Shown here one piece after another: positions 390 to 15,578 of a stretch of 64,000 nt of DNA; position 1 is the stretch's first letter, and each line of letters opens with the position of its first letter. A model generated the notes under the pieces. The model was given only the letters and a program-made list of their open reading frames with translations. It was not told the origin of the DNA and ran no database searches. A program made the translations under genes and the position numbers. This stretch comes from Roseovarius sp. W115 (GTDB taxonomy: Bacteria; Pseudomonadota; Alphaproteobacteria; Rhodobacterales; Rhodobacteraceae): positions 372,001 through 436,000 of the forward strand of contig NZ_CP146606.1 of assembly GCF_032842945.2 (NCBI RefSeq), in the 5' to 3' direction.

Positions 390-1211
390 TTATACCGTCG
401 CGCCGCCGTTGCGCTCGGCGTGCCAGGCCTGTGTCAGGCGCGGGGTTTCCTCGTTAGGTACCAACGCCAAAGCGTGGCCCTCAACGCCGACGGTGAGCAC
501 GATCGTCCGTGCATTCGCCAAGGGCACCATCAGGCATTGCGGCTCATCAAGGTTCAGACGCCGTGCATGTCCCCGCGCGCTTTGGCCGGTCTGGAAATTG
601 CGATGAAACTCTTGCAGAAGCTCGACCTCGCCTTGCGATCCAGTTGTGGCATAGTTTGTCAAATCCGAGTTGGTCTTCACAAAAGCCTTGGCAACACCTT
701 GTATTGCATCAAGAAACCCAACCTCTTCCACAACGGGCAGCAACCTGAAATCTGCGATACCAGCCGCATCTGCAAGACTCTGGCAAGAGCAAGACATGTT
801 AAAGCTTGTCCCAGCTGGAAGGCGCCGTGGGCGCAAAATGCGCGCCTCCTGACTTGTTTCAAAAGCCTGCGTCAGGATCTGAGCAAATTGCTGCGCCATA
901 TCCTGGCTGTCTTCGGCCTGCACCATCGGGGTTTCATCAATATCATGATCAAATCGAATAGCGGCCAAACGGCGGTTGGACACGCTGAGCCGCATGGTCC
1001 CAAAGACCTGGCATTCGATGATAATTTCGCGTGGCAGGATCGTTTCATCAATTTCACGCAGCACTGCACAGAGAAGATCATGTTTGCCTGTGCCAGCGGC
1101 TATTGGCGCGCCATAGATCAACCGCTCTGGCCGCGCCAAGCGCCTGAGGGCCCGGTCTAGTCCGGGCCTTTCCTTGGGTATGATCTCTGCATTTGCCACC
1201 TGGGTCGCCAT
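390..1211 (-). CDS. Uncharacterised 273-residue protein, distal gene of the kinase/GTPase operon
   Basis: I do not recognise the family. The protein is soluble, with no signal peptide or membrane segment. It has a basic N-terminus and two beta-rich stretches (around residues 60-95 and 225-260). The middle contains a CSCQS motif near residues 140-145. The ATG at 1211 overlaps the stop of the upstream gene as TGATG, which indicates translational coupling. The rhythm of the C-terminal strand-helix region loosely recalls small adaptor folds such as roadblock domains, but this is impression only. Its position suggests it works with the GTPases and the kinase/phosphatase pair upstream. Confidence 0.6.
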   Translation of the reverse strand: MATQVANAEIIPKERPGLDRALRRLARPERLIYGAPIAAGTGKHDLLCAVLREIDETILPREIIIECQVFGTMRLSVSNRRLAAIRFDHDIDETPMVQAEDSQDMAQQFAQILTQAFETSQEARILRPRRLPAGTSFNMSCSCQSLADAAGIADFRLLPVVEEVGFLDAIQGVAKAFVKTNSDLTNYATTGSQGEVELLQEFHRNFQTGQSARGHARRLNLDEPQCLMVPLANARTIVLTVGVEGHALALVPNEETPRLTQAWHAERNGGATV

Positions 1212-1597
1212 CACTGTACTGCCGAGATTTTTTGCAAAGCACGATGCGCTGCAGAAAAGAGTTTCGGTGCTGCATCTGGATCATCGGTCACCAAACACAA
1301 AAACTCTGACTGAGAGCTGTCAGAGCGCACAAACACCATGGTCTCACCCTTGGCGAGAATAGCAGCCTCATTGAGCGTTGCGCATTCACCTTTTTCAAGT
1401 CCCGGTACATCCCATGTGGCGTCCAATAACTCAAAGCAGCTGGCAGCGTGGTCGCACAGCGCGTCCAGGTATTCCCGGCGAATCCCCTGACGGTGGCTGG
1501 CGCGCAGGATCAGACGCGCGGAGGTGTCGCCAAAGGCCGCCACGGAACATCCCGCGACCGACTTGCGTCCTGCGTCCAATACCTGCTCAATATTCAT
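1211..1597 (-). CDS. Small conserved protein, possibly roadblock/LC7-like
   Basis: A 128-residue soluble protein. The ATG at 1597 is preferred over the upstream GTG codons because GGAG lies 8 bases before it. The pattern is an N-terminal helix, a CSVAAFGDTSARLIL strand pair, a long helix, a MVFVRSDSSQSEFLCLV strand pair and a final helix. This resembles roadblock/LC7 proteins, which act as GTPase partners (for example MglB with MglA). The resemblance is by eye and not established. It lies directly downstream of a P-loop GTPase gene and is coupled to the next gene by a TGATG overlap. Confidence 0.6.
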   Translation of the reverse strand: MNIEQVLDAGRKSVAGCSVAAFGDTSARLILRASHRQGIRREYLDALCDHAASCFELLDATWDVPGLEKGECATLNEAAILAKGETMVFVRSDSSQSEFLCLVTDDPDAAPKLFSAAHRALQKISAVQ

Positions 1598-1650
1598 TCC
1601 CACCACTCCATCATCAGCAGACCCTCTGCCTTTGGGTATGCCCTACACGT

Positions 1651-2541
1651 TCAGGCACCGGCATTTTTCACTTCAAGATAGTCCAACTCGACCTCGCCCG
1701 CAGGTGGACGCGCCCGAGACGCACCATCCTTGGATTTGGCCCGAGACACGCGCTTGGGGATGATCCGCTCGGCGTCTTCCACCGGCTCGATCTCGGTCAG
1801 CCCGTCCTCATCGGCCTCAGACGCTTCTTGTGTCTCACCGGACATGTCACGCGCCATCAGATCCTCGATCAGATATTCGCAAAACGCTGCGGCCCCGCTT
1901 TGAATCCAGGCATCCTTGTCCTCAGCTTCGGTGGCATCAAGCAACGATAGAGGAAACACAGCGTCAAACTGTCCTTCGGTTTCCTTGCCAACCCGCGACA
2001 AGAGCCGCATCCGATCACGATCCGACGTGATCTTGTCAAACTGGGTGATCGCCAAAAGGTTATGACCTTTGGTACGCTCAGTAAGCTCTTCCCAAGTGGC
2101 CGCCTCCGACTGGCGCCAGGCCTGCGTCGCGTGTGTGCACCAGATAACGGAATCCACTTCATCAAACACAGCCATAAGCACGGAACGATCCATGTTTGGG
2201 TCTGAAATGCCAGGCAAATCAAAGAGATCACAGATCTCAAGAATATCTGACTTAAGCCATAGGCGAATGTATTTGGTGTCTTCCAGGGACGTGTCGGCGA
2301 TATCACCCATTGGCAGGTCTTCTTGCACATCGTCATGCGTCACGCGCGCCGCGGCGGGTTCTCCATAGGCGATCCAAACCGGCGGAACACTGGTCGCCGT
2401 GATGCGCACCGGCAAGGAGGCTTGTGACAACAGCATGTTGAGCAACGTGCTTTTGCCTGCGCTGAACTCCCCCATCAGGGCAATGCGCGGCTTACGCTCT
2501 GTGCTCGCCTCGGTCTCGCTCATGTTGGTCATGGCTGTCAT
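1651..2541 (-). CDS. P-loop GTPase of the dynamin/Era-like superfamily
   Basis: A 296-residue GTPase. All nucleotide-binding motifs are visible: G1 GEFSAGKS at residues 24-31, a conserved Thr/Ser region ITATSVPP after it (G2), G3 DLPG near residue 110 and G4 TQFDK near residue 170. The GEFSAGKS form of the P-loop is typical of bacterial dynamin-like proteins, but the protein is too short for a full stalk and paddle. After the G domain comes an acidic, low-complexity tail. An SD-like GGAAGG lies about 11 bases before the ATG. It is the third GTPase-type gene in a row in this operon, 16 bp after the large dynamin-like gene. Confidence 0.85.
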   Translation of the reverse strand: MTAMTNMSETEASTERKPRIALMGEFSAGKSTLLNMLLSQASLPVRITATSVPPVWIAYGEPAAARVTHDDVQEDLPMGDIADTSLEDTKYIRLWLKSDILEICDLFDLPGISDPNMDRSVLMAVFDEVDSVIWCTHATQAWRQSEAATWEELTERTKGHNLLAITQFDKITSDRDRMRLLSRVGKETEGQFDAVFPLSLLDATEAEDKDAWIQSGAAAFCEYLIEDLMARDMSGETQEASEADEDGLTEIEPVEDAERIIPKRVSRAKSKDGASRARPPAGEVELDYLEVKNAGA

Positions 2542-2557
2542 TTGAGTTTATCCTTCC

Positions 2558-4702
2558 CTAGTCCGCATATCCGCGCAGAACGGACAGAACATCATCCAGG
2601 ATTTCCGTTTGTGTCGCGTGGGTACTGCGGCCAAGCCGACTCTGCACTTTGGCGTCCGAAGTCGTGCCCGTGCCGATGTCCGACAGAATGTCTTTCTGAT
2701 CTTCCAGGAAAAGACGCAGTGTATTGAGGATTTGATCTCGCACCTCTTGCGTTTGTACCGTTTTCAGCTGCGCCATGAAGTCTTGGGTCTCATCGGCAAT
2801 CAACTGGCGGAACTTACGGGCAAAGGTCTCATAGCCGCGAAGACGTTGCCACCAAGACACCCACCAGCCATCGTGAAAATCAAGCGCGATGGTTTGACCC
2901 AAAGAGATCGGTGCCGGAGTGCCCGGCACAGACGGCGCGGCCAGTTGAATACCCGCCACAGCGTCGCCAAAGGCGGAACTGTAGACTTCCGCGATATCCG
3001 CCAGAGCGGCTTCAAAGTGCTGTTCTGCAATGGATTGCGCGCGCTTGCCAAAAACCGAATAGGCCGACCGCATCAAGAGCCGCAGACCCGTAGGATCATA
3101 TTTCCAGCCGTCCTGTGGCCCTTGTTGCTCAAGATGCGCGATCAGCGACTGGGTGGCACGTTCGATGAATTGATCATGCGCCCGGTCAGCGCGCGCATAG
3201 TAATCTTCGGTCGCCTGAATAAGATCTCGTTGCAGCGCTTGAGCGTGCTGGTCTGCAATCCGGTCAAACGCAAACAAAGCCTCTTCGGGCGTCATGGACG
3301 CCCCTTTGGCATCACCTAGCTGCACTTTGGACTTGGCCTGCTGACCAGTCGCCAGGCTCACAGCGGTGCTGGTGATTTTGTTCAGGAACGGATTGGCAAT
3401 GTCCATGACAATACGCTCAGACAGCGCCCGGAAAAGCGATGGCAACCCTGACAGTTCCCAAACAATCTCAAAGGGTTCTGTTTCGCTGCACTTGATCTCG
3501 CGATCTGTCTCCGCCCATTTCAAAAGCGCTTTGATGCGCTCTTGCGGCATTTTCTGTACGTCACCAGACAGCACAGCGTTGGCCCAATAGGCACTGCCAA
3601 AGATGATGTCGATGTTCTCCGGCGCACGTTTCTGGCGCAGGGTCTGACGAATGCTGCGCTCAATTTCCGGCACCTGCTGCGCAGGGGCTTGAAGCTCATC
3701 CACGCGGTTGACGAAAATCACGATATTGCGCGACTTGAGGTTCGAGATGAGCCGGATCAGGCCCATGTCGACCGAACTCAATGCCTGGTTGGCAGACAGG
3801 ACAACCACACAGAGCTTGCTATCGCGAATGGCCTGTACCGTGATCTGCTCACGCATCATGAAAGTGTCATTCACACCGGGCGTATCCCGAAGGCACAGGT
3901 TGCTCGGCACGGTGGTGCTATTGAGATAAAGGTCAGCAGATCGCAGGATCTCGGCAAAGCGGCCCTGCTCTTCCTGATCGGCACTGACCTCTTCATCGCC
4001 GTCAAAATCATCGCCCAGGCAGATGTACTTCTCCAGCAGGTTTTTATCGAAATAGCCGTAGTCATGCTCTTGACCGATCAAGAGTTCAAACTTCTTGCCC
4101 AACCGATGCCGGGCTTTCTGGCGTACGATTTCAATCTGCTCACTGATCTTCTGCAGCTCACTCTCGGCGCCGGCCCGGCTGGCCAACTCGCCCATACGAC
4201 CGCCTTTGTTGAGCAGGCGTTCCCATTCATCGTCGGTCATGAATTTGAAGCATGCCCCGTTTTCAGACCGGGACTCACCTGGCTTGAGGTGCAGCGACGT
4301 CACAACAGACGTCCACGGATTTACATCCGATGGCAAAAGATCGGACCACCCGGCCATGGCATTGACCAACGCGGTCTTGCCTGCCTTGACCTGGCCCAGC
4401 ACGGTGATGGTCGGCTCGAACTCTGCCAACTCCTTGCGCAACCGCGCCACGGCCTTGGCGCTGTTCGTGCCTGTCAGCGCGGCAAGTGTTTGCAGGGCTT
4501 CGTCAACGCGTTTCGTGTCTTCTGCGAAATGCTCCAAAAGCTCGAGCCCCGCACTCAACGTGGCGGGGCGCGGGGCCTTGCGCAGCTCGGTCGTTTCGGT
4601 TTTTCGAACTTCTACATTCATTGTTTTATCCGCGGCAGGGATCGCATCTGTCCCACAAAATTCTGTCAAGCGGGTGGCATTACGGAGGTCATCCTTTGTC
4701 AC
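2558..4702 (-). CDS. Dynamin-family large GTPase
   Basis: A 714-residue protein starting with GTG at 4702; this overlaps the upstream stop as GTGA. The G domain has G1 GQVKAGKT at residues 103-110, G3 DTPGVND near residue 280 and G4 NRVDEL near residue 335. A roughly 90-residue helical segment precedes it, and a long helical region (about residues 440-714) follows, as expected for the stalk of bacterial dynamin-like proteins. A W-rich stretch (DGWWVSWWQRL, near residue 625) could be a membrane-contacting paddle. Known bacterial dynamins act in membrane fusion, stress repair or phage tolerance. The function here is inferred only from the fold and from the kinase/phosphatase neighbours. Confidence 0.85.
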   Translation of the reverse strand: MTKDDLRNATRLTEFCGTDAIPAADKTMNVEVRKTETTELRKAPRPATLSAGLELLEHFAEDTKRVDEALQTLAALTGTNSAKAVARLRKELAEFEPTITVLGQVKAGKTALVNAMAGWSDLLPSDVNPWTSVVTSLHLKPGESRSENGACFKFMTDDEWERLLNKGGRMGELASRAGAESELQKISEQIEIVRQKARHRLGKKFELLIGQEHDYGYFDKNLLEKYICLGDDFDGDEEVSADQEEQGRFAEILRSADLYLNSTTVPSNLCLRDTPGVNDTFMMREQITVQAIRDSKLCVVVLSANQALSSVDMGLIRLISNLKSRNIVIFVNRVDELQAPAQQVPEIERSIRQTLRQKRAPENIDIIFGSAYWANAVLSGDVQKMPQERIKALLKWAETDREIKCSETEPFEIVWELSGLPSLFRALSERIVMDIANPFLNKITSTAVSLATGQQAKSKVQLGDAKGASMTPEEALFAFDRIADQHAQALQRDLIQATEDYYARADRAHDQFIERATQSLIAHLEQQGPQDGWKYDPTGLRLLMRSAYSVFGKRAQSIAEQHFEAALADIAEVYSSAFGDAVAGIQLAAPSVPGTPAPISLGQTIALDFHDGWWVSWWQRLRGYETFARKFRQLIADETQDFMAQLKTVQTQEVRDQILNTLRLFLEDQKDILSDIGTGTTSDAKVQSRLGRSTHATQTEILDDVLSVLRGYAD

Positions 4703-5931
4703 GCTTGCGCGTGTGCCGTTATTTCCTTTTTCAGTTGCAACATAAGCGTCACGGCATCCGCCGCGGCGTCTTCGTCTTTCTCAAGCTGGAAGAGCAGAAG
4801 CATGTTTTCGCCCTCCTGCGCTTCTTCCAGCAGCTCGCTCAGCGATGGGTCGTTTCCCGCCGCCTCTGAGAGCATGTCCGACATGTCACGTACCGTCTCA
4901 AGACAGCTTTCGAGCACCTCGTTGCAGTCACCCTCTTCAAGGCCCGAGACATCCTGCAACATGTCTTCGGCCCCCTTGGTCAACCGGATCAGGGACTTTT
5001 GCAGCGCATCGCGTTTGTTCAATGCCGCATCTGGCGGGGCCTTATCCGTCGGCTTGGGCATGCTTTTCGCAACCGGCGTTCCTGCGAGCGGAACAGCAGC
5101 CTGCTCTGGTTCAACATCCAGTTGCTCCAGGAGCACCTTCACACGGTCCACATCTTCGCCGCGACCCAGCGACACCTGTCGCGTGATCGCGTCATAAAGC
5201 GCCTCGCCGCCGCTGAGTTTCCACATGTCGGACTTTTGCGCATTGGGCTCACTGCGCGCTGAAATCGCCTGTAGCGTTGCAATGGGGTAAAGGCCGAAAA
5301 ACTCTTCTGAAACAAATTCTTCTAGTTCCGCAATGCGGTCTGTCAGGCGACCTTTCATCATCTGGCGATCAGCCATGGTCAGGGCCAAAAATCCGTGATC
5401 CTTGATATGCTCCGGAAGGTCAGACCAGATCGCCTGCTCCGCTTCCTCAAAAAGCTCAGAACACCAGATCAGAATAGTCGAGGACCGCGCAGCATAATCA
5501 AGCAGCGCCTGTTGTTTCGTCTCAGCCTCGGGCAGCCGGATTTCAGCAAAGGATTGCACCAAAAGACGTTCGTCAGGGATCTCAAGCCGGACGCGATAAG
5601 GACCGTCCATGTCCGGTGCCGTTTCAACGACCCCGGCCTCACGATGCACCGTTTCTTCGTCTTGCATGAAACACGTCGCAGACTCAGGGCCATAGACCAG
5701 CTCGACCACCTCAGGTCCGTCGAAAGACGGCACACAGACCCCATTCAGCATCATATTGATCAGCCCGGTCTTGCCACTGCCCGGCAGTCCGACAAAGGAA
5801 ATCTGAATCGGTTTGCGCAGCTGTGACAACAACTGCGCGCCCAGTGTTTTGTACCGGCCTGAGACCTCCTCGTGGTCAAGGACGTCCTCCAGCTGCCGGG
5901 ACAGATGATCTATGGTCTGTGCCGTCGTCAC
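4699..5931 (-). CDS. GTPase-like P-loop protein with degenerate G3/G4 motifs
   Basis: A 410-residue protein read from the GTG at 5931, which overlaps the PP2C stop (ATGTGA). A good P-loop, GLPGSGKT, lies at residues 48-55. However, the expected DxxG is replaced by an IRLPEAE-type sequence, and the expected NKxD by LTMADR. It may bind nucleotide without normal hydrolysis, or act as a pseudo-GTPase scaffold for its neighbours. The C-terminal third is helical and acidic, with a Pro/Ala linker around residues 270-300. It lies between the phosphatase and the large dynamin gene and is coupled to both by 4-base overlaps. Confidence 0.75.
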   Translation of the reverse strand: MTTAQTIDHLSRQLEDVLDHEEVSGRYKTLGAQLLSQLRKPIQISFVGLPGSGKTGLINMMLNGVCVPSFDGPEVVELVYGPESATCFMQDEETVHREAGVVETAPDMDGPYRVRLEIPDERLLVQSFAEIRLPEAETKQQALLDYAARSSTILIWCSELFEEAEQAIWSDLPEHIKDHGFLALTMADRQMMKGRLTDRIAELEEFVSEEFFGLYPIATLQAISARSEPNAQKSDMWKLSGGEALYDAITRQVSLGRGEDVDRVKVLLEQLDVEPEQAAVPLAGTPVAKSMPKPTDKAPPDAALNKRDALQKSLIRLTKGAEDMLQDVSGLEEGDCNEVLESCLETVRDMSDMLSEAAGNDPSLSELLEEAQEGENMLLLFQLEKDEDAAADAVTLMLQLKKEITAHAQA

Positions 5932-6872
5932 ATCTTTACCTTCCTGGAAACACACACAACTTGCGACGCACCGCCCGATTTACGCGACAGGACAGTGACA
6001 GAGGACGGGCGCGACGCCTGGTCGGCCTGAACAATCTTGGTCACGGCGGCAATCGGATCCGGCACAGCGGCGTGATCCTCTTCCGCGCCTTTCACTTTGA
6101 TCAGGCACAGCGAGACATTGTCCTGATCAGGGTCATCCAAGGCTTCGATTTCGCGCAACAGCGCGGCGCTGATCTCGGTGCTGGGACGTGTTTGATAGGC
6201 GGCGAGCACATCTTCGATCCGCTCGGGGCTGAGATACTCCAGGCCATCGCTTGCCGCGATGACGATATCGCCTGACTGAAGCGACACAGGCGCACCCGAG
6301 CAGTCAATCTTGGGGATCTCATTGCCTGCCAGAACGGATGTCAGCGCGCTACGGTCCGGGTGGTTTCTGGCCTCATCCAGATTGATCAGGCCCTTAGTCT
6401 GCATCTCGTCGATTTGAGGCGCCATAGAATGATCTTCGTTCAGCCGCTCAAGCCGCCCTTCGCGATACAAAAAGAGCGGCGAGTCTCCGACCGATACCCA
6501 ATAAAGCCGTTCGCCAAAAATCACCGGGACCAAAGCGGTTGCTCCCATGACGGACACATCAGGCGATGCATTGGCCATGTGCTCGATGCACATGTTGGTG
6601 TCCTGAATGGCCGCGCACAGCTTGTCGCGGATATTCTCCTCCATGGCCTTTGGATCGCTGATCAGCATTTTCAGCTCGCTGAACATCTCTGTCACAACGA
6701 TCTGGCTGGCGACGTCACCGGCGGCGTGCCCGCCCATCCCATCGGCCAACACAGCAAACCCATGCGGTGCGCCCACAGGAAAATCCACCGCGACAGAGTC
6801 TTCCTGGCGGTCACGACGCCCCAGGCTCATGGCCGAGGCGGCGTCATAGTGGATCTTATTGGGCTGAGGCAT
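5928..6872 (-). CDS. PP2C-family Ser/Thr protein phosphatase
   Basis: A 314-residue PPM/PP2C phosphatase. The start at 6872 is chosen because the protein then begins MPQPNK and overlaps the FHA gene by 17 bp; an upstream extension would be implausible. Metal-binding motifs are intact: RRDRQED (residues 19-25), DGMGGH (44-49), ASDGLEYL and a final DNVSLCLI. Such enzymes remove phosphate from Ser/Thr in partners of bacterial Hanks-type kinases. It lies immediately after the FHA gene and near the kinase gene in the same operon, giving a complete write-read-erase phosphorylation module. Confidence 0.93.
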   Translation of the reverse strand: MPQPNKIHYDAASAMSLGRRDRQEDSVAVDFPVGAPHGFAVLADGMGGHAAGDVASQIVVTEMFSELKMLISDPKAMEENIRDKLCAAIQDTNMCIEHMANASPDVSVMGATALVPVIFGERLYWVSVGDSPLFLYREGRLERLNEDHSMAPQIDEMQTKGLINLDEARNHPDRSALTSVLAGNEIPKIDCSGAPVSLQSGDIVIAASDGLEYLSPERIEDVLAAYQTRPSTEISAALLREIEALDDPDQDNVSLCLIKVKGAEEDHAAVPDPIAAVTKIVQADQASRPSSVTVLSRKSGGASQVVCVSRKVKM

Positions 6873-8301
6873 GTTTGACGTCCTCGTCGCGGTCCCAAGA
6901 GAATTTCGCGCCACAGAAGGCCACAAAACGCAGCGTGGTTTCGCCAATCCGCACCGTGTCATCTGACTGAAGCTCTTCTGTGCTCAGCACAGGGCGATTG
7001 TTCACCCGCACCAAATTAGCTTTGCCGCCATGGCCAATGAAAAATGTCTGCTGCTCATTGTCATAGGCAATCGCGGCATGGTTCTCGCGCGAGATTGAGT
7101 TGTCACCGAAATTCAGGCGCACAGTCTGATCTTCGCCGCGTCCGATTTGTGTGACGCCATCAAAGATGGTGAAGGCGGCACCGCGGCCTGGCCCGTCAAC
7201 AACCACTAACCATCCAACCGGGAAGCTTGCAGAGGCGTCTGTCGGTTTTGCCGTGCCACCAGCCTTTTCAAAAGGATCCTCGCTGGCGGCAGCAGGTGCG
7301 GTGAACCCAAGGATACGGGTTTTCACGCGCCCCGACCGTCCACCAGCACCACGGCCAGCCGCGGGAAGCGGCACAGCGAATGGGGCGTCCGAGACCTCTG
7401 CGGCCGCCTCTTGGGCGACAGGCTCCGGGGCGACTTCTGCGTCTTCGACCGATGCGATGTTGGCCGTCTCATCACTGGCCTCTTCGGCCATCAAGGCTTC
7501 TGTCACAGCTTCCACTTCCGGAGCCATTTCGGATGCGTCTTCCAAAGCTATCGCTGCTTCATCCTGACCAACCTCAACGGCGTCCGCCTCGACGTCTTGG
7601 ACCTCAAGAGCCTCACCGGCTTCAGCATCATCCGACATTTCAACTTCTGTAGTGTCAGCCTCCAGATCGTCCTCAATTTCGGTCTCAGCAGCAGCGTCGA
7701 TCTCAGCATCTTCCATGTCCAACATCTCGTCAGACATCTCTACCGCGATCCTGTCGTCTTCGGCCTCGGCTGTGTCTTCAATGACGTCTTCCGCCACCTG
7801 CATCTCAGCCTCTGCCTCAAACTCATCATCCGCACCCGGCTCGGCTTCGATCCGCAAAGTTTCCAGATCGGCAACTGCGGCTTCCAAAGCATCAGGCAGG
7901 CTTGGTTCTTCGGCTTCCGCTTCGTCCGTGACATCCGCATCTTGCTTCACTTCAAACCCTTCCAGGTTCAGTGCAGCCGGCATGTCCACCTCGTCGCTTT
8001 CTGTATCGGCAAACATGTCATGCAGGCCGCCAACATCACCTTTGATCTCTGCCCCTTCCGGTGTCTCTGCCCCGACCCAGCCTTCGTCGTCGTCATAGCT
8101 TTGAATCGGCTCAAGGCTTTTGAGATCAAAATCCATCTCATCCGCCGATCCATTCATCTCAGGGTCAGACATGTCTTCCGCCATTGCCTCGCTGACAGAA
8201 GGAATATCCAGCACAGGCCGTTCAGCCGCCTCAGTGGTCGGCGCATCGTCACCGGCACGGGCCGCACGCTTTTCTTCAATAATATCACGCAAAAATTTCA
8301 T
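6856..8301 (-). CDS. FHA-domain phosphothreonine-binding protein with long acidic N-terminal region
   Basis: A 481-residue protein. Residues about 30-320 are extremely rich in Glu, Asp and Ala with few basic residues, and are likely disordered. The C-terminal 110 residues form a forkhead-associated domain with the canonical residues TQIGRGEDQ, SISRENHAAI and VNNRPV. FHA domains bind phosphothreonine, so this protein should recruit kinase-phosphorylated partners. AAAGGA lies about 8 bases before the ATG. The gene sits 11 bp after the kinase gene and overlaps the phosphatase gene. The acidic region is a natural substrate or spacer, which is inference. Confidence 0.9.
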   Translation of the reverse strand: MKFLRDIIEEKRAARAGDDAPTTEAAERPVLDIPSVSEAMAEDMSDPEMNGSADEMDFDLKSLEPIQSYDDDEGWVGAETPEGAEIKGDVGGLHDMFADTESDEVDMPAALNLEGFEVKQDADVTDEAEAEEPSLPDALEAAVADLETLRIEAEPGADDEFEAEAEMQVAEDVIEDTAEAEDDRIAVEMSDEMLDMEDAEIDAAAETEIEDDLEADTTEVEMSDDAEAGEALEVQDVEADAVEVGQDEAAIALEDASEMAPEVEAVTEALMAEEASDETANIASVEDAEVAPEPVAQEAAAEVSDAPFAVPLPAAGRGAGGRSGRVKTRILGFTAPAAASEDPFEKAGGTAKPTDASASFPVGWLVVVDGPGRGAAFTIFDGVTQIGRGEDQTVRLNFGDNSISRENHAAIAYDNEQQTFFIGHGGKANLVRVNNRPVLSTEELQSDDTVRIGETTLRFVAFCGAKFSWDRDEDVKHASAQ

Positions 8302-8312
8302 TTTTTGTTCCT

Positions 8313-9913
8313 TTAGTTCTGAAGAACAACAGAGTCGCCAGACTCTTTTCCGGGCAGAATTTTGTTAAAGAACCGACCCATCGCGCCCTTGCGCGCAGGC
8401 TTGGGATCGTTCGGGTCTCGGCCTTCTGCATCGGCATGTTGTTCCATGCTCGGGTCTTGGGATGAGGTGCCTGCTTTATCTTTCGACTTACGTTTCTTGC
8501 GGAGCGGGGTTCCATCCTGTTCGGCCAGAAACGCATCAACGTCTTCAATAGGATTGCCAAAAATGTCGACGGGCTGCGACTTTGACTTGGGCTCTTCGAT
8601 CTTGGATGCCGCCTCACGCTCGACATCCTCTTTGGTCTTCAACAGATGCGACACACCTGGGGTGAACTTGCTGTTCGTGTCGGACACAAGCTCGGAAATC
8701 TTGGATATGATCTCGGGCGCATCTAGGGGGATCGCCGTTGGATCTGGCGGAGGGGCCGCCGCCAGTGTTTTCTGTTTCGGGCTGCTCTCCGTCTCGGCTG
8801 GAACCGCAGCTTTCACCCTTGGATCCGGCGCAGATAAAGGCGCATCCTTGACCGGCGCATGCAGCGGTTTGGAGTCTTCCACGACCGGAGCCGACGCTTG
8901 CGGTTGCACATGGATTTCGGGCTGCGTCTGCGCGACCGGGGCGGGTTGTACAGATTGCACAGGCTGTATGGATGGTTGAGCCTGGACCTGTGGCTGAACG
9001 TGAGCCGCAAGAGCCGCATTCAAATGCCCAAGCCACTGCGCCGCACTCGCAATACGATCCTGGGGATACACATTGAGCGCCTGATTGATCAGGTTCAGGA
9101 ACCCTTGATCCAGGTCCCAGTCCACGCCGCGCAACGGCTCAAAGGGATCTGGGTTTCCTGCCTCAATGGACTGACGACGTATTTCCGCATCGGGTGGGGT
9201 ATAGCCGGTGACGAGGTAATGGAAGGTGGCACCTAGCGCATAGATATCGCTGACCACATGGTGCTCGGCGGCCTGATCGTAAAACTCAAATGGTGAGTAC
9301 CCGTCCTTCACCGCCAAGAGCTTGCTGCTCGCTGACTGATCCTGGCTTTCAATTTCCAGAGAAGATCCGAAGTCAATCAGCGTGACCCTGTTGCGGGCAT
9401 CAATGATGAAATTGTCCGGAGCCAGGTCGCGATGCAGGATGCCTTGCTCGTGGGTGTACTGAACCGCGTCGAGTGCTTCGCTCACAACCTGCAAGAGGGT
9501 CGCGCCATCAAGACGTTCAGGCGTTTCTTCAACGATGGTGCACAGATCCTCGCCATTCACGAAATCCATGCCAAGGAAAGCCGTGCCGTTTTCCTCAAAC
9601 ACCTGATGCACACGCACAATGCCAGGGTGTTCGAGAGCCGCCAGCCGGTAGGCCTCATGCTTGAACTGATCGAGGACGGTCTCGAACCGTTTGGCGAATT
9701 GCTCGGTCTTGGGACAAACACGAAGGGCAGCGCGGGTGCACAAATCCTGGGGGAAGCATTCCTTGATGACCACACGGCGCTTCAGGCTGTCACGCGCAAG
9801 ATAGGTAATCCCGAACCCCCCTGCGAAAGCGGACGTTCAATGACGTACTGCCCCCTCAGGAGTTTCGTGCCGCTGGGCAATTCAATACCACTGCGCTGCG
9901 GTTCAAGATTCAT
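8313..9913 (-). pseudogene. Hanks-type Ser/Thr protein kinase, frameshifted in its glycine loop
   Basis: Two reading frames together encode one kinase of about 533 residues. The first part starts at 9913 and runs through ERPLSQGGSG before reaching a stop. The second frame supplies FGITYLARD, the catalytic VVIKE lysine, HRDLAPDN, the DFG of LIDFGSS and the rest. Restoring one G in the run of six (C6 at 9816-9821 on the plus strand) gives a perfect QGGFGITYLA glycine loop. After the kinase domain (to about residue 290) comes a Pro/Gln-rich linker and a basic tail with no membrane helix. It heads the FHA/PP2C/GTPase operon. The break may be a sequencing error, true decay or a phase-variable tract. 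Confidence 0.85.
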
Positions 9914-10098: not shown

Positions 10099-11103
10099 TT
10101 AGCGCAAAGAGGCGCGCAGAACGATTTCGGTTTCTAACAGGCGTGATCGTCCGGGGCTGGTGCCTTCGACCATCGCCACCAATTCATCCGCTGCGGCCTG
10201 GCCCATCTCACGATGTGGCACGGCAACCGTGGTGAGTGTGGGCTGAACGATACGCGCCAGTTCCATGTCATCGAACCCTGTGAGCGACACGTCACCAGGC
10301 ACATCAATGCCCACGGTCTTGGCCGATTGCAGCGCGCCGACCGCCAAAAGATCGTTGCCGCAGATCACTGCCGTCGCACGTGGCGTTCGGGCCATGAGGC
10401 GGGCAAAAGCAGCTTCCCCTGCTTCAATCGTATAGGCGGTCTCAATCACGGCCAGCGCGTCGGGCGACACGCCTTTTTCGGCCATGGCTGTTTTTACGCC
10501 ATCCAGACGTTTCTGCGCCCTGTCATTGCCCGCACAAACGCCAGAGATCATCGCAATGCGACGATGCCCGCGGTCAATTGCGGCCTGCGTCACGGCCCGC
10601 ATCGCTGCGTGATTGTCGAACCCGATTGACGGAACTGGTCCATCGGCATCAAATGCCCAGGCCACCAGGGCTGGCACGTTCTGCCGCGCCAGGTAATCAT
10701 AGATCTGCCCTTCGCGCTCATAGCCAATCAGCAAGAGACCATCTGCGCCCCGCGCCACCAAGGTGCGGATCTGTTCCTTTTCGATGTCAGGCTTGTAGGC
10801 AGAGCTGGACACCAAGAGCGTATACCCCCGCGCATGAAGCGCTTCCTGAAATGCTTGCAGACCCTTGGCGAAAATGGCGTTGTCCAGCGTCGGCACAATC
10901 GCCCCGATGGTGTAACTGCGCTTGGCCGCCATGACCCGCGCCGCGAAATTCGGTGTGTAACCCAGCGCATCGACGGCCTTCATCACCTTGTCCCGCGTAG
11001 TCTCAATCACCTTGCCCGGCTCATTCAGACAACGCGACACCGTGGCGGTGGAGACACCTGCCATCTTGGCAACATCATCAAGCGTCGGCACAGGCTCATT
11101 CAT
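10099..11103 (-). CDS. LacI-family transcriptional regulator
   Basis: A 334-residue repressor-type regulator. The start at 11103 (MNEPVPTLDD) fits the family; an upstream extension lacks conservation. The N-terminus is a typical LacI HTH and hinge (TLDDVAKMAGVSTATVSRCLN, then YTPNFAARVMA), followed by a periplasmic-binding-protein-like effector domain. It is divergent from hpsN, and two LacI-type palindromes lie in the intergenic region, so it very likely represses the hps/com genes and itself. The effector is probably dihydroxypropanesulfonate or a pathway intermediate, which is inference. Confidence 0.93.
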   Translation of the reverse strand: MNEPVPTLDDVAKMAGVSTATVSRCLNEPGKVIETTRDKVMKAVDALGYTPNFAARVMAAKRSYTIGAIVPTLDNAIFAKGLQAFQEALHARGYTLLVSSSAYKPDIEKEQIRTLVARGADGLLLIGYEREGQIYDYLARQNVPALVAWAFDADGPVPSIGFDNHAAMRAVTQAAIDRGHRRIAMISGVCAGNDRAQKRLDGVKTAMAEKGVSPDALAVIETAYTIEAGEAAFARLMARTPRATAVICGNDLLAVGALQSAKTVGIDVPGDVSLTGFDDMELARIVQPTLTTVAVPHREMGQAAADELVAMVEGTSPGRSRLLETEIVLRASLR

Positions 11104-11176
11104 TGATGTGGCACAGCCTTTCGCACAGCGTTCACAGGGCCTCATAGCATAAAACAGAAGTTTTGAAACCGCTTGA

Positions 11177-11211
11177 TGTAAGCGCTTGCATAAATTATGT
11201 AAGCGCTTACA
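11177..11211. promoter_or_regulatory. Tandem LacI-type operators
   Basis: TGTAAGCGCTTGCA (11177-11190) and the perfect palindrome TGTAAGCGCTTACA (11198-11211) match the LacI-family consensus with its central CG. Their centres are 21 bp apart, two helical turns, so two dimers would bind the same face. They lie between the divergent lacI-type gene and hpsN and should control both. Confidence 0.85.
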
Positions 11212-11294
11212 CGGAGCTTGTGTGATTCTGCTCCAATGTCATTTGGGGCGTGTATGCGACAGGCCTTTTAACGAGAAATAAGGAACGGCCCTCC

Positions 11295-12602
11295 ATGCCT
11301 CGCGAATATCTTAAAAAAGCAACGCTGACGTCCAAGTCTGATGCGTCCGAAGTTCATGCCACCGTGCAGGGCATCCTGTCCGACATCGAAGCGGGCGGGG
11401 ACGCAAAGGCGTTGGAATATGCTGCGAAGTTTGACCAGTACGAAGGCAACACCCTTCTGACGCAGCAAGAGATTGACACGGCTTGTGAGCAGGTACCGGA
11501 CAAGCTTAAGGCGGACATCCAGTTCGCTCATGACAATGTGCGGCGCTTTGCGGAAATGCAGAAGTCGACCGTGGCGGATGTCGAGATGGAAATCCTGCCG
11601 GGTTTTGTTGCGGGGCAAAAGGCCATTCCAGTGGACGCTGCCGGATGCTACGCGCCCGGTGGCCGCTATAGTCACATCGCCAGTGCCATCATGACCGTGA
11701 CCACAGCCAAGGTCGCAGGCTGCCGTCATATCACCGCCTGCTCGCCCCCACGCCCCGGCGTCGGCATTGCCCCGGCGATTGTATACGCCGCCCATATCTG
11801 CGGTGCGGACAAGATCATGGCCATGGGCGGGGTTCAGGGCGTTGCGGCGATGACATATGGCCTCTTTGGCCTGCCCAAGGCCAACATCCTGGTGGGACCG
11901 GGAAACCAATTCGTGGCCGAAGCCAAGCGCATTCTGTTTGGCAAGGTTGGCATCGACATGATTGCCGGGCCTACGGACAGCCTTATCTTGGCTGATCACA
12001 CAGCCGACGCTCATATCGTGGCCACTGATCTGGTGAGCCAGGCCGAACATGGCTACAACTCACCTGTCTGGCTGGTGACAGACCAACGTGACCTGGCCGA
12101 GAAGGTGATGGAGCTTGTGCCTGGCCTAATCAAAGACCTGCCCGAGCTTAACCGCGACAACGCTTTTGCCGCATGGCGCGACTATGCAGAAGTGATCATC
12201 TGTGCCGACCGCGAAGAAATGGCAGCTTGCTCCGATGACTACGCGCCAGAGCACTTGACGGTGCAGGCCGAAGACCTTGATTGGTGGCTCAACCGTCTGA
12301 CCTGCTACGGCTCTCTGTTTCTCGGTGAAGAAACCACCGTATCCTACGGCGACAAAGCCACCGGCACCAACCACGTGCTGCCCACATCAGGGGCTGCGAG
12401 CTATACCGGTGGTCTAAGCGTGCACAAATACATGAAGATCGTCACCTGGCAGCGCGCCACACGCGAAGGATCCAAATCCGTGGCCGAAGCCACCGCGCGC
12501 ATCTCGCGTCTGGAGGGGATGGAAGGACATGCCCGTGCGGCGGATGTGCGTCTGGCCAAATATTTCCCCAAAGAAAACTTCGATCTAAGTGCCGATGGGT
12601 GA
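11295..12602 (+). CDS. hpsN: Sulfopropanediol 3-dehydrogenase (HpsN), histidinol-dehydrogenase family
   Basis: A 435-residue enzyme of the HisD family. The start at 11295 (MPREYLKKA) follows AAGGAAC. It retains the family's catalytic DDYAPEHL region and the metal-site glycine-rich segments (AGPTDSLILAD, LVGPGNQFVAEAKR). HpsN oxidises (R)-2,3-dihydroxypropane-1-sulfonate to (R)-sulfolactate with NAD. True histidinol dehydrogenase is less likely, because the gene opens an operon with two more alcohol dehydrogenases and sulfopyruvate decarboxylase instead of his genes, and is controlled by LacI operators. Confidence 0.85.
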   Translation: MPREYLKKATLTSKSDASEVHATVQGILSDIEAGGDAKALEYAAKFDQYEGNTLLTQQEIDTACEQVPDKLKADIQFAHDNVRRFAEMQKSTVADVEMEILPGFVAGQKAIPVDAAGCYAPGGRYSHIASAIMTVTTAKVAGCRHITACSPPRPGVGIAPAIVYAAHICGADKIMAMGGVQGVAAMTYGLFGLPKANILVGPGNQFVAEAKRILFGKVGIDMIAGPTDSLILADHTADAHIVATDLVSQAEHGYNSPVWLVTDQRDLAEKVMELVPGLIKDLPELNRDNAFAAWRDYAEVIICADREEMAACSDDYAPEHLTVQAEDLDWWLNRLTCYGSLFLGEETTVSYGDKATGTNHVLPTSGAASYTGGLSVHKYMKIVTWQRATREGSKSVAEATARISRLEGMEGHARAADVRLAKYFPKENFDLSADG

Positions 12603-13368
12603 TCCCGAACAAGACCCACGGGATCTGTTTGATCTGACAGGCCATGTGGCTTGCGTGACCGGCGCAAGCTCGGGATTGGGGCGTCGCGCCGCTGTGACCT
12701 TGGCCGCTGCCGGGGCTTACGTGGTTGGCGTGGCACGGCGCAAAGAGGCGCTGGAGGATCTTAAAGCGGAAGTTGGCGTCGGCATTGAAACGGTCGTCGC
12801 AGATGTGTCGAACAGGGATGATCTCGACACCGTCGTGGCGAAGATCGCAGCGCCCTTTGGTGCACCTGACATTCTTATTCATGCAGCCGGAATCAACACC
12901 CGAGAAGCTGCCGATGATGTCACGGCGGAAGGATGGGACCAAACGCTGGCGCTGAACCTCTCGACCCCCTTCTTCTTGAGCCAAGCCTTTGTGCCGAAAA
13001 TGAAATCCAAGGGTTGGGGCCGCATCGTCAACTTCGCCTCGCTGCAGACCACGCGCGCCTTTCCCGGCGGCATCGCCTATGGCGCATCCAAAGGCGGTAT
13101 CGCCCAGCTCACCCGTGCCATGGCCGAGGCGTGGTCATCGCATGGCATCATGGCCAATGCGATTGGCCCCGGATTTTTCCCAACCGAATTGACCCAAGCC
13201 GTATTCGGTGATGCCGACCGGGCCGCGCGCAACGCTGCGCAAACCTGTGTTGCCCGCAACGGAGAGCTGCGCGACATCGACGGGCCGCTACTTTTCTTGT
13301 GCTCAGAGGCCTCTGGCTATGTCACCGGACAGGTTCTCATGGTCGACGGGGGGTTCACCGCGAAATGA
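12595..13368 (+). CDS. Short-chain dehydrogenase/reductase (HpsO-like)
   Basis: A 257-residue classical SDR. TGASSGLG forms the NAD(P)-binding motif near the N-terminus, HAAGIN is the NAG-like strand, and the active-site YGASKGG follows the catalytic Ser in NFASLQ. The ATG at 12595 overlaps the end of hpsN. In known DHPS clusters two extra dehydrogenases (HpsO and HpsP) interconvert the DHPS enantiomers through the 2-keto compound, and this gene occupies the matching place. The enzyme-to-name assignment is uncertain, so no symbol is given. Confidence 0.85.
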   Translation: MGDPEQDPRDLFDLTGHVACVTGASSGLGRRAAVTLAAAGAYVVGVARRKEALEDLKAEVGVGIETVVADVSNRDDLDTVVAKIAAPFGAPDILIHAAGINTREAADDVTAEGWDQTLALNLSTPFFLSQAFVPKMKSKGWGRIVNFASLQTTRAFPGGIAYGASKGGIAQLTRAMAEAWSSHGIMANAIGPGFFPTELTQAVFGDADRAARNAAQTCVARNGELRDIDGPLLFLCSEASGYVTGQVLMVDGGFTAK

Positions 13369-14345
13369 AGGCGCTTGTTTATGACGGTGTGGAGCAGATG
13401 GGCTACCGGGACGTTGCTGATGCCGCGCCACGTGACGGAGAGCATCTCATCCGTGTCGCCGCCGTGGGCATTTGCGGCTCTGACATGCATGCCTATCTGG
13501 GTCACGATGATCGCCGTCCGGCCCCTCTGATACTCGGGCATGAGGCGGCAGGCGTGATCGTTGGAGGCCCGCGTGCAGGAGATCGCGTCACCATCAACCC
13601 ACTGGTCACGTGCGGCACATGCCCGGCCTGCACATCGGGTCGCGAAAACCTGTGTCCAACCCGGCAGATCATCTCCATGCCACCGCGCGAAGGGGCCTTT
13701 GCCGAGCTTGTCGCGATGCCGGAGCAGAACCTTGTCACAGTGCCGGAGGACACAGCGCTTGATAAGGCCGCTTTGGCTGAGCCACTGGCGGTGAGTTGGC
13801 ACGCCGCACGTCTGGCGCTGGAGGCCCTGCATCCGTCTCAGGATCGGCGCGCTTTGGTTATCGGCGGCGGGGCGATTGGTCTCGCCGCAGCGCTGGCGCT
13901 CGAGGCCATGGGTGTTGATGACATCACCCTTTCGGAGCCGAACGATGCGCGGCGCAATTTCTTGCAGGATACGTGCAACCAAAAGGCCATCGCACAAGCC
14001 GAGGGCACGTTTCCCATCATCATCGACGCCGTGGGCTATGCCGCAACCCGTGCGGCCGCGTCTGCGATGGCAGAACCCGGCGGTGTGATCGCGCATGTCG
14101 GTCTGGGCGAGGATGCCGGGGGTCTCGATGTCCGACGCATGACCCTGCAGGAGATCACCTTTATCGGCACCTATACCTACACAGCCCAAGATTTCCGCGA
14201 CACGGCGCAGGCCATTTTTGACAGCCGCCTTGGTCCGCTCGACTGGTTTGACAAACGCACTCTATCCGATGGTTATCAAGCCTTTCAGGATCTGCGCGCA
14301 GGCCACGTCGCACATCCGAAAATCGTACTCTATCCCGATCAATAG
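13365..14345 (+). CDS. Zinc-dependent medium-chain alcohol dehydrogenase (HpsP-like)
   Basis: A 326-residue MDR enzyme starting at the ATGA overlap with the SDR gene. It has the catalytic-zinc motif CGSDMH, the GHEAAGVIV segment, a structural-zinc cysteine cluster (CGTCPACTSGRENLC) and a Rossmann motif VIGGGAIGLAAAL. The family oxidises secondary alcohols of sugars and polyols. Its position third in the hps/com operon suggests oxidation or racemisation of dihydroxypropanesulfonate. A 50-bp gap separates it from comD. Confidence 0.87.
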   Translation: MKALVYDGVEQMGYRDVADAAPRDGEHLIRVAAVGICGSDMHAYLGHDDRRPAPLILGHEAAGVIVGGPRAGDRVTINPLVTCGTCPACTSGRENLCPTRQIISMPPREGAFAELVAMPEQNLVTVPEDTALDKAALAEPLAVSWHAARLALEALHPSQDRRALVIGGGAIGLAAALALEAMGVDDITLSEPNDARRNFLQDTCNQKAIAQAEGTFPIIIDAVGYAATRAAASAMAEPGGVIAHVGLGEDAGGLDVRRMTLQEITFIGTYTYTAQDFRDTAQAIFDSRLGPLDWFDKRTLSDGYQAFQDLRAGHVAHPKIVLYPDQ

Positions 14346-14395
14346 CATGTAACGCCACACAGCGCCGAGGCGCTCCAACCGAAAGGCTAACTCAG

Positions 14396-14902
14396 ATGAA
14401 TATCGACAAGAAGATCGTTGATGATCTTGTCGCCAACGACATCTCCTTTGTCACCACTGTGCCCTGCAAGCAGCTCGCCGGTGTGATCGAAGAGGTCGAG
14501 AACCGCGACGGCATCTATCACATTCCTTCCAACAAGGAAGACGAGGGCATGGGCCTGTGCGCCGGGGCGCATATGGGTGGTAAACGCCCGGCCATCATCA
14601 TGCAGAACACGGCGATTGGTGTGACGATCAACACGCTGGCAACGCTCATTCAGTATTACCACATGCCGCTTCCGATGATCATTTCCTATCGCGGCGAGTT
14701 GCGCGAACCGGTGGCCTGTCAGGTGGAAATGGCGGTGCACACCAAGGCGCTCTTGGCACAGCTCAACATCCCGACCTACCACTTCCACTGGCAGCGGGAC
14801 GTCGAAGAGTTCGACAACATTCTGAAATACACCTTCATGTGCAACAAACCTGTGGCCATCTTGACCGATGCCAACTTCTGGGGAGGCTATGGCGACCAAT
14901 GA
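14396..14902 (+). CDS. comD: Sulfopyruvate decarboxylase, alpha subunit
   Basis: A 168-residue protein matching the PYR (N-terminal) half of thiamine-diphosphate decarboxylases. It contains the segment PCKQLAGVIEEVE and the conserved glutamate region SNKEDEGMGLCAGAHMGGKRPA, then the MQNTAIG loop. ComD and ComE form the heteromeric enzyme that converts sulfopyruvate to sulfoacetaldehyde. The split into two genes is normal for this family. It is coupled to comE by an ATGA overlap. It follows the DHPS dehydrogenases, so the operon carries carbon from DHPS through sulfolactate and sulfopyruvate. Confidence 0.88.
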   Translation: MNIDKKIVDDLVANDISFVTTVPCKQLAGVIEEVENRDGIYHIPSNKEDEGMGLCAGAHMGGKRPAIIMQNTAIGVTINTLATLIQYYHMPLPMIISYRGELREPVACQVEMAVHTKALLAQLNIPTYHFHWQRDVEEFDNILKYTFMCNKPVAILTDANFWGGYGDQ

Positions 14903-15453
14903 TCCGTTCTGAAATTCTCAAAGAAATCGCCCCGATCCTGCGCGACCAGCTTGTCGTCTGTAACATCGGCATTCCCTCCCAAGAGCTTCATGCGATTGAT
15001 GACCAGCCGACGAATTTTTACATGCTGGGCACGATGGGGTTGTCGTCCTCGATCGGTCTTGGCCTTGCTTTGGCGCAGGACAAAACCGTGATCTCAATTG
15101 ACGGGGATGGCTCGGTTCTGACCAACCTGTGCACCCTGCCCACGATCGCGAACAATGTGGCCGACAATTACATCCTGATGATCATCGACAACGGCTCTTA
15201 TGGCTCAACCGGGGATCAGCCGACCTATACCGGCAAGAAAACCTCGCTAGCGGGTATGGCCCGCGCGGCGGGTTGCGAGAATGTGGTCGAGGTGCAGGAC
15301 GTCGACACTGGCAAGGCTCTGCAAGAAGCCATTGATAGCAAGAAAATGACCGTGATGGTTGTCAAATGCGACAGCGGCAATGCCAAGATGCCGGTGATCA
15401 CCATGGATCCCGTTGTGATCAAGCATCGGTTTATGGAAGCCGTGAAGGCCTGA
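14899..15453 (+). CDS. comE: Sulfopyruvate decarboxylase, beta subunit
   Basis: A 184-residue protein forming the thiamine-diphosphate-binding half. The motif GDGSVLTNLCTL matches the GDG-(x)n-N cofactor motif, and GSYGSTGDQPT follows. The ATG at 14899 overlaps the comD stop. With ComD it makes sulfoacetaldehyde, which is normally cleaved by Xsc to acetyl phosphate and sulfite; xsc is not in the window. A strong terminator follows 25 bp downstream, so this is the last gene of the unit. Confidence 0.88.
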   Translation: MIRSEILKEIAPILRDQLVVCNIGIPSQELHAIDDQPTNFYMLGTMGLSSSIGLGLALAQDKTVISIDGDGSVLTNLCTLPTIANNVADNYILMIIDNGSYGSTGDQPTYTGKKTSLAGMARAAGCENVVEVQDVDTGKALQEAIDSKKMTVMVVKCDSGNAKMPVITMDPVVIKHRFMEAVKA

Positions 15454-15478
15454 GGCGGCCCTTGCCGGAACGAAAGAG

Positions 15479-15504
15479 CCCGCAGCGATATGGCTGCGGG
15501 TTTT
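15479..15504 (+). terminator. Rho-independent terminator after comE
   Basis: Stem CCCGCAGC (15479-15486) pairs with GCTGCGGG (15493-15500) around a 6-base loop and is followed by TTTT. Confidence 0.9.
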
Positions 15505-15578
15505 CTTTTGCAGGTGCTTCTCAAGCCCTGCCGGGCTTTCGGCGCGAAGAAGCCCGTGAGGGCTGATAAGCGCGCGGG

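Follow-up and report, generated by a model that had tools for sequence, protein, structure and literature searches.

A conserved operon joining a dynamin-like pair with a Ser/Thr phosphorylation circuit and a predicted roadblock protein in Roseovarius and its relatives

Introduction

What might a bacterial cell do with an operon in which a protein kinase, an FHA protein, and a PP2C-type phosphatase are encoded together with dynamin-family GTPases? This question is raised by a locus of Roseovarius sp. W115 found within the 64,000-nucleotide stretch of DNA analyzed here (hereafter the window), in which eight minus-strand genes were confirmed at positions 390-9913, in the order H-G-F-E-D-C-B-A from upstream to downstream. 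The genome measures 3.7 Mb, and the operon-bearing window sits on its first contig. Our reading of this locus, to which we give an even chance, is that it would encode a phosphorylation-gated, roadblock-assisted heterotypic dynamin machine acting on membranes, a function that we infer. What the present analysis brings anew is the recognition of D and C as a heterotypic pair, of B (and perhaps A) as a predicted roadblock protein, of the grouping of E with small dynamins paired to a second large one (D2), and of a membrane span in some variant kinases.

Results

To delineate the operon across genomes, species genomes were scanned with D, which returned 544 pattern-matching stretches, 512 of them encoding a relative; the best 80 of these 512 were taken, so that the resulting set of loci favors the window's own type. 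Within this set, the complete series H-G-F-E-D-C-B-A is carried by 66 of the 80 closest D loci (64 directly, plus L100, in which E is split in two ORFs, and L093, in which A was found with a better profile). The 14 others comprise 12 loci cut by contig ends and two departures, namely L088, in which no B was detected, and L104, which lacks E, B, and A. Outside of the operon, the top recurring ORF family is found near 18 of the 80 loci at most, on mixed sides and strands. The initial annotation had named a neighborhood not conserved in relatives as a possible refutation of its reading, and the co-occurrence and order of the genes turned out to be kept.

As called, the genes overlap by 4, 4, 28, and 107 bases at four junctions and are separated by gaps of 11, 16, and 44 bases at the three others. 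The mechanical starts of D, F, and B are probably too early, the conserved starts lying at about 4621, 6872, and 1597, respectively, and a D start near 4621 would leave a gap of about 77 bases between E and D. The description of the locus as eight minus-strand genes joined by overlaps or by gaps under 50 bp thus stands for the positions, the strand, and the called junctions, and needs amending for the kinase, whose frame is broken, and for the E-D gap if the likely start of D is considered. Seven of the genes, E included, display dN/dS values of 0.00-0.12 in comparison with L025 and L026, those based on L026 being rough (dS exceeds 1 there, near saturation, and is about 3.4 for A); for G, dN/dS is 0.26 versus L025 and not computable versus L026. 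These values indicate purifying selection on the operon genes. The GC content of the operon (0.56-0.59, vs. 0.54-0.61 across the remaining first 30 kb) gives no sign of foreign DNA. In the public annotation of one window-type copy, the genes appear as protein kinase, FHA, PP2C, hypothetical, dynamin, dynamin, hypothetical, and hypothetical: the record places D and C in the dynamin family, leaves E, B, and A hypothetical, and accordingly has no name for the system. Pfam at curated cut-offs likewise returned no family for E, B, and A.

At the heart of the operon, D (2558..4702, minus strand; 714 aa) is a large dynamin-like GTPase and C (1651..2541, minus strand; 296 aa) a small dynamin-family GTPase, both matching Pfam Dynamin_N (6.9e-15 and 2.1e-13, respectively). 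Their profiles have as best PDB matches 5owv_A for D (1.3e-9) and 5owv_C for C (7.8e-26), chains that we take, from their lengths, to be Cj-DLP1 and Cj-DLP2 of Campylobacter jejuni. Judged by sequence, these two proteins make up a bacterial dynamin-like pair of the heterotypic kind, encoded by adjacent large and small genes related to the subunits of 5owv. The length of D is sufficient for a neck and a trunk, and its motif WWxxWWxRxRG (residues 613-623) is invariant in 10 aligned rows. C keeps the G motifs and consists of little beyond the G domain; the two systems share adjacent genes for a large protein and a smaller partner but differ in this respect, C having 296 aa, mostly G domain, versus 614 aa in the Campylobacter pair (the C relative of L117 reaches 587 aa). 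In the sections of PMC6104087 that bear on these proteins, bacterial dynamins are said to occur mostly as gene pairs and Cj-DLP1/2 is presented as a heterotypic dynamin-like pair with a structure and a proposed tethering role; the pair adjoins an HcpA-like gene there, and those sections mention no kinase, FHA, PP2C, or roadblock genes beside it.

A different function could nevertheless be envisioned, in which the dynamin-type GTPases would form a soluble switch, gated by GTP and phosphorylation, that controls a target enzyme in the way RdcA/RdcB (YjdA/YjcZ) of Escherichia coli control the diguanylate cyclase DgcE. In PMC6510439, RdcA is described as a dynamin-like GTPase that is soluble, is co-transcribed with a partner, and acts in signaling. 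D does resemble RdcA over 333 columns (hhalign 87%, 3.7e-6, with a single RdcA sequence as template), and the gene order is similar, a large dynamin-like GTPase gene closely preceding one of about 290 codons; the two overlap by 4 bases in E. coli, as they do in relatives such as L037, and in the window D and C are 16 bases apart. Yet the resemblance does not extend to the partner, as C and E align to RdcB with hhalign probabilities of 0.3 and 0.1 only (the template being a single RdcB sequence), and it is the Cj-DLP1/2 pair that D and C match instead. Membership in the RdcA/RdcB system was ruled out on this basis. If the lack of a clear membrane span in the window proteins and of any conserved neighbor, membrane protein or other, would suit a soluble device, no recurring target enzyme was found in the operon or its flanks, and we regard such a signaling role as rather unlikely.

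Coming back to the heterotypic dynamin machine, the operon encodes a third member of the family, E (4699..5955, minus strand), whose profile aligns to that of C over 236 columns (100% probability, 1.5e-41). E keeps the P-loop and has lost switch I and DxxG; among 15 E proteins of window-type operons, GxxxxGK[ST] is present in 13 and DxPG in none. By comparison, both E proteins of L117 and L130, two loci in which D2 directly precedes E, keep DLPG (the D2 label rests on position and on a lower score). The loss of DxPG in E counts only as an association with the absence of D2, because the C2 proteins of D-C-D2-C2 loci also lack DxPG (5/5) despite their preceding D2. A tree built from 48 small dynamins, with the long-branch rows L133_E and L126_C left out, places the 14 window-type E proteins and 5 D2 partners on one branch (98/86), and a quick tree including these two rows gave the same grouping (SH-aLRT 84, not starred). 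A local duplication of C as the origin of E was discarded, an E+C clade being rejected with a p-AU of 0.013 in a test that assumes groups named beforehand. Given this rejection and the branch shared with the D2 partners, E is best read as the remnant of a second dynamin pair, that is, a putatively GTPase-dead or degenerate subunit related to the partners of a D2 that the window operon lacks. Its dN/dS values are 0.09 and 0.12. The initial annotation of a dynamin-like GTPase, a second GTPase, and a degenerate GTPase is hence borne out, D and C by Pfam and E by its match to C and its degenerate motifs.

The downstream end of the operon had been described as two small unknown proteins, a label that no longer suits the first of them. 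B (1211..1606, minus strand; 131 aa) is, according to its predicted model, a roadblock/LC7 protein with an alpha-beta2-alpha-beta3-alpha fold. By sequence, B gives no Pfam roadblock match and precomputed Pfam domains are found in 0 of 45 of its relatives; a UniRef relative from Roseovarius phycicola, 95% identical to B, is named Roadblock/LAMTOR2. As for A (390..1214, minus strand; 274 aa), its C-terminal residues 165-272 perhaps form a second roadblock-like domain, which the model matches weakly. PDB sequence searches with A and B returned only matches with E of at least 1. Known roadblock partners are small Ras-like or Rag GTPases, with roles in motility and nutrient sensing. The predicted fold of B, and possibly that of the A C-terminus, next to GTPase genes, is reminiscent of the roadblock/LC7 regulators MglB and Ragulator, with the difference that the GTPases of the operon are of the dynamin family. 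Streptomyces conservons also associate a roadblock protein with a GTPase, but the operon encodes no histidine-kinase-like ATPase, DUF742, or Ras-like GTPase above the Pfam cut-off.

Upstream of the dynamin genes lie those of a Ser/Thr protein kinase, H (8313..9913, minus strand; Pfam Pkinase 5e-28 on its body), an FHA protein, G (6856..8301, minus strand; Pfam FHA 1.1e-7), and a PP2C-type Ser/Thr phosphatase, F (5928..6962, minus strand; Pfam PP2C_2 2.8e-11), so that the proposed association of a writer, a reader, and an eraser with dynamin-type proteins in one unit is corroborated by Pfam and by the order kept in relatives. The motifs HRDxxPDN, DFGAA, and VKDGYSPxEFY of H are conserved in an alignment of 76 rows, as are the metal-site motifs of F in 77 rows; F also matches the NCBIfam Stp1 model (1e-40, below the model cut-off). 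G combines a MKFIRDII-like N-terminal start, a long acidic linker, a GRVKTRLLGF-type motif (GRVKTRILGF in the window), whose columns are conserved at at least 90% of 77 rows, and a C-terminal FHA domain. The Thr of this motif is a candidate phospho-site, by analogy to FHA proteins of the GarA/OdhI type. In the window, the active-site and binding motifs of the kinase body, G, and F are kept, and the glycine-loop region of the kinase is frame-broken.

This break deserves attention, as the frame that includes the ATG at 9913 ends with a stop at 9782, the body of the kinase being read in a separate frame (8313-9773), the interruption falling in the glycine loop region. In the sister locus (L013/L025, near-identical), the kinase is a single intact 567-codon ORF, and the DNA of the window aligns to that of the sister in two blocks with a one-base length difference at about 9821/9822. 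The intact sister frame and this single-base difference imply that the break in the window is either real or an assembly error. The one-base difference sits in a G-rich stretch and may be such an error. One could therefore wonder whether the locus is a decaying remnant, deprived of its writer in a strain that would be losing the operon or using another kinase, a scenario suggested by the contrast between the interrupted frame of the window and the intact one of the sister; we find it quite improbable, for the remaining seven genes are open, the dN/dS of the kinase body versus the sister is 0.09, which gives no sign of a long decay, and the location of the missing or extra base in a G-rich stretch speaks in the same direction.

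Kinase, FHA, and phosphatase trios are known from other contexts. The threonine-phosphorylation pathway of type VI secretion systems (T6SS), PpkA/Fha/PppA, is likewise made of a kinase, an FHA protein, and a PP2C phosphatase encoded together. Unlike this pathway, the operon is not accompanied by a VipB sheath gene, which is absent from the window genome and from 11/11 D-bearing genomes of the genus, the sole VipB-bearing member of the genus (among 24) being one that lacks D. With VipB as the sole T6SS gene searched, a T6SS module was ruled out, in line with the earlier remark that no T6SS genes are present. A Ter-type module, which had also been put forward as a possible refutation, was rejected too: the TerY-P triad has a kinase and a PP2C in common with the operon, but no operon protein has a TerY-type vWA or TerD match in Pfam.

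Does any protein of the system reach the membrane? In a 19-residue hydropathy scan, no window protein attains 1.6 (maximum 1.44, the kinase being represented by its body only). Among kinases of the named loci, 2 of 75 reach at least 1.6 (L101 and L102), and those of four loci (L101, L117, L129, and L130) display a hydrophobic span and a long tail, with PDZ_6 below cut-off in two of them (L101 and L129), which hints at an envelope signal in these four lineages. As many as 45 of 78 D relatives also exceed 1.6; for the four that were listed, the hydrophobic stretch corresponds to residues 274-344, within the G-domain part, and is accordingly not read as a membrane span.

The distribution of the operon bears on its possible role in defense. 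D is present in 11 of 24 genomes of the genus (E up to 1e-3), and a D relative in 98 of 292 genomes of the order (E up to 1e-40, including variants without phospho genes); wider sampling (E up to 1e-30) yielded D in 2 of 289 genomes at the class level and in 9 of 398 at the phylum level, all but one in the family of the window. D relatives are also carried by 18 PLSDB plasmids (12 from Leisingera, 5 from Ruegeria, and 1 from Rhodobacter), and by 0 of 50,697 phage records at 1e-5. In the window, the operon is flanked by a RegA-type regulator fragment and by a LacI-type regulator with hps-like genes of sulfonate catabolism; among the genus loci compared, only the sister copy shares the LacI, HpsN-like, and RegA flanks (the window's own locus, L023, ends before LacI). 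Among the nearest ORFs of 65 complete loci, 117 of 128 were scanned for defense genes, some of these ORFs possibly not being real genes, and two TIR-type PADLOC models matched one neighbor each at 1e-10, so that defense-like neighbors amount to 2 of 117 at most. In the operon itself, the kinase matches MAD6 and PD-T4-6 over the kinase domain, C and D weakly match LeoA, and C and E very weakly match mad8. With no system-specific PADLOC match and so few defense-like neighbors, a known anti-phage system or defense island was excluded, and the prior suggestion of a defense machine is not sustained. A kinase-controlled anti-phage or stress-abortive defense acting via dynamins, to which the patchy spread, the varied neighbors, the plasmid copies, and the aforementioned PADLOC resemblances could lend some appeal, appears very doubtful in view of these scarce matches, of kinase matches that lie over the kinase domain, of neighbor Pfam families that are chiefly regulators and metabolic or transport proteins (top 25 of 102 families), of the regulator and sulfonate catabolism genes at the window flanks, and of the absence of toxin-like effector domains among the Pfam matches of the operon.

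Discussion

We know of no phospho-switch described for bacterial dynamins. The operon reported here brings together, in a conserved unit, a dynamin pair, a predicted roadblock protein, and a complete circuit of Ser/Thr phosphorylation. We did not find this combination described in the open-licence literature searched, consistent with the initial annotation, which knew of no described system with this set. In the reading that we favor, the phosphorylation-gated dynamin machine would be one self-contained assembly, cytoplasmic in the window genome and built on the large D and the small C. The D-C pair would probably tether, remodel, or repair membrane in a GTP-dependent manner; the membrane-remodeling hypothesis formulated at the outset gains from our analysis through the homology of D and C to the Cj-DLP pair only. 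The H/G/F phospho-switch would set when this pair assembles: H may phosphorylate conserved sites, possibly the Thr of the GRVKTRLLGF-type motif of G and sites within acidic linkers, the FHA domain of G would then read phosphothreonine and recruit the GTPases, and F would reset the switch. B and A (if the fold of A is right) may dimerise and dock on C and E, tuning their cycle or assembly in the manner of MglB/Ragulator-type roadblocks, and E would be a GTPase-dead subunit kept for a regulatory or structural role. The input of the system could be envelope stress.

A more specific version of this machine can be imagined by extending the parallel with Ragulator. C (active) and E (dead) would form a heterodimer seated on a roadblock heterodimer of A and B, and this platform, gated by the FHA-read phospho-code and, in some lineages, by an envelope-sensing membrane-spanning kinase, would license D on the membrane, E being a pseudo-GTPase kept as a regulator after the loss of its own dynamin partner. 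We consider this elaboration tentative and unlikely to hold in all its parts. If the wiring of the operon is real, the on/off control of bacterial dynamins becomes testable. E also offers a traceable example of the passage from GTPase to pseudo-GTPase.

The arrangements found in relatives offer a view of how such a machine may be put together. In L117, the genes follow the series D-C-B-A-D2-E-H-G-F, and the same series is annotated on a Ruegeria plasmid (L137/L138; B and A assigned by position). Other loci have D-C-D2-C2 without the remaining genes (L116, L118, L120, L121, and L124), B-A ahead of one large and one small dynamin (L122 and L131), or a single large-small dynamin pair (L119, L123, L125, L126, and L134). 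These rearranged loci delineate four blocks, namely D-C, D2-E, B-A, and H-G-F, and since D-C or D-C-D2-C2 can be found without phospho or roadblock genes, the dynamin pair looks like the core of the system and the switch like an added controller. On the Ruegeria plasmid, two substrate-binding-protein genes are found closely after F.

In this genome, the glycine-loop region of the operon's kinase gene (window 9773-9822) carries a frame break, and in the near-identical sister locus, which differs there in length by one base, the kinase frame is intact. The break is either a real mutation or an assembly error. Elsewhere, four loci (L101:3528-6239, L117:13693-15885, L129:3608-6502 and L130:4828-7008) encode variant kinases that contain a hydrophobic span and are extended at the C-terminus, and PDZ_6 was matched, at a score below the cut-off, only in those of L101 and L129.

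As regards the large dynamin (window 2558-4702), a WWxxWWxRxRG motif at residues 613-623 is invariant across 10 rows and is a candidate membrane-contact element. Tandem pairs of large and small dynamins (D-C-D2-C2), free of kinase or roadblock genes, occur at five loci (L116, L118, L120, L121 and L124), and DxPG is absent from the second small dynamin in all five. In one further variant locus, a gene with a slightly sub-cut-off AAA_21 match (25 vs 27 bits; L122:8586-9803) separates the large dynamin gene from the roadblock-like genes.

On the Ruegeria sp. B32 plasmid (L138), two genes for substrate-binding-domain proteins (13758-16162) lie downstream of the operon. A gap of 22 bases parts the phosphatase gene from the first of them, and one of 44 bases parts the first from the second; their products may serve the nine-gene variant as sensor components.

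Beside the operon, in a stretch for which the Pfam scan covered the sister's LacI copy only, a LacI-type regulator adjoins histidinol-dehydrogenase-like, SDR-like and alcohol-dehydrogenase-like genes (window 10099-14345), a set resembling hpsN/O/P of sulfonate catabolism.
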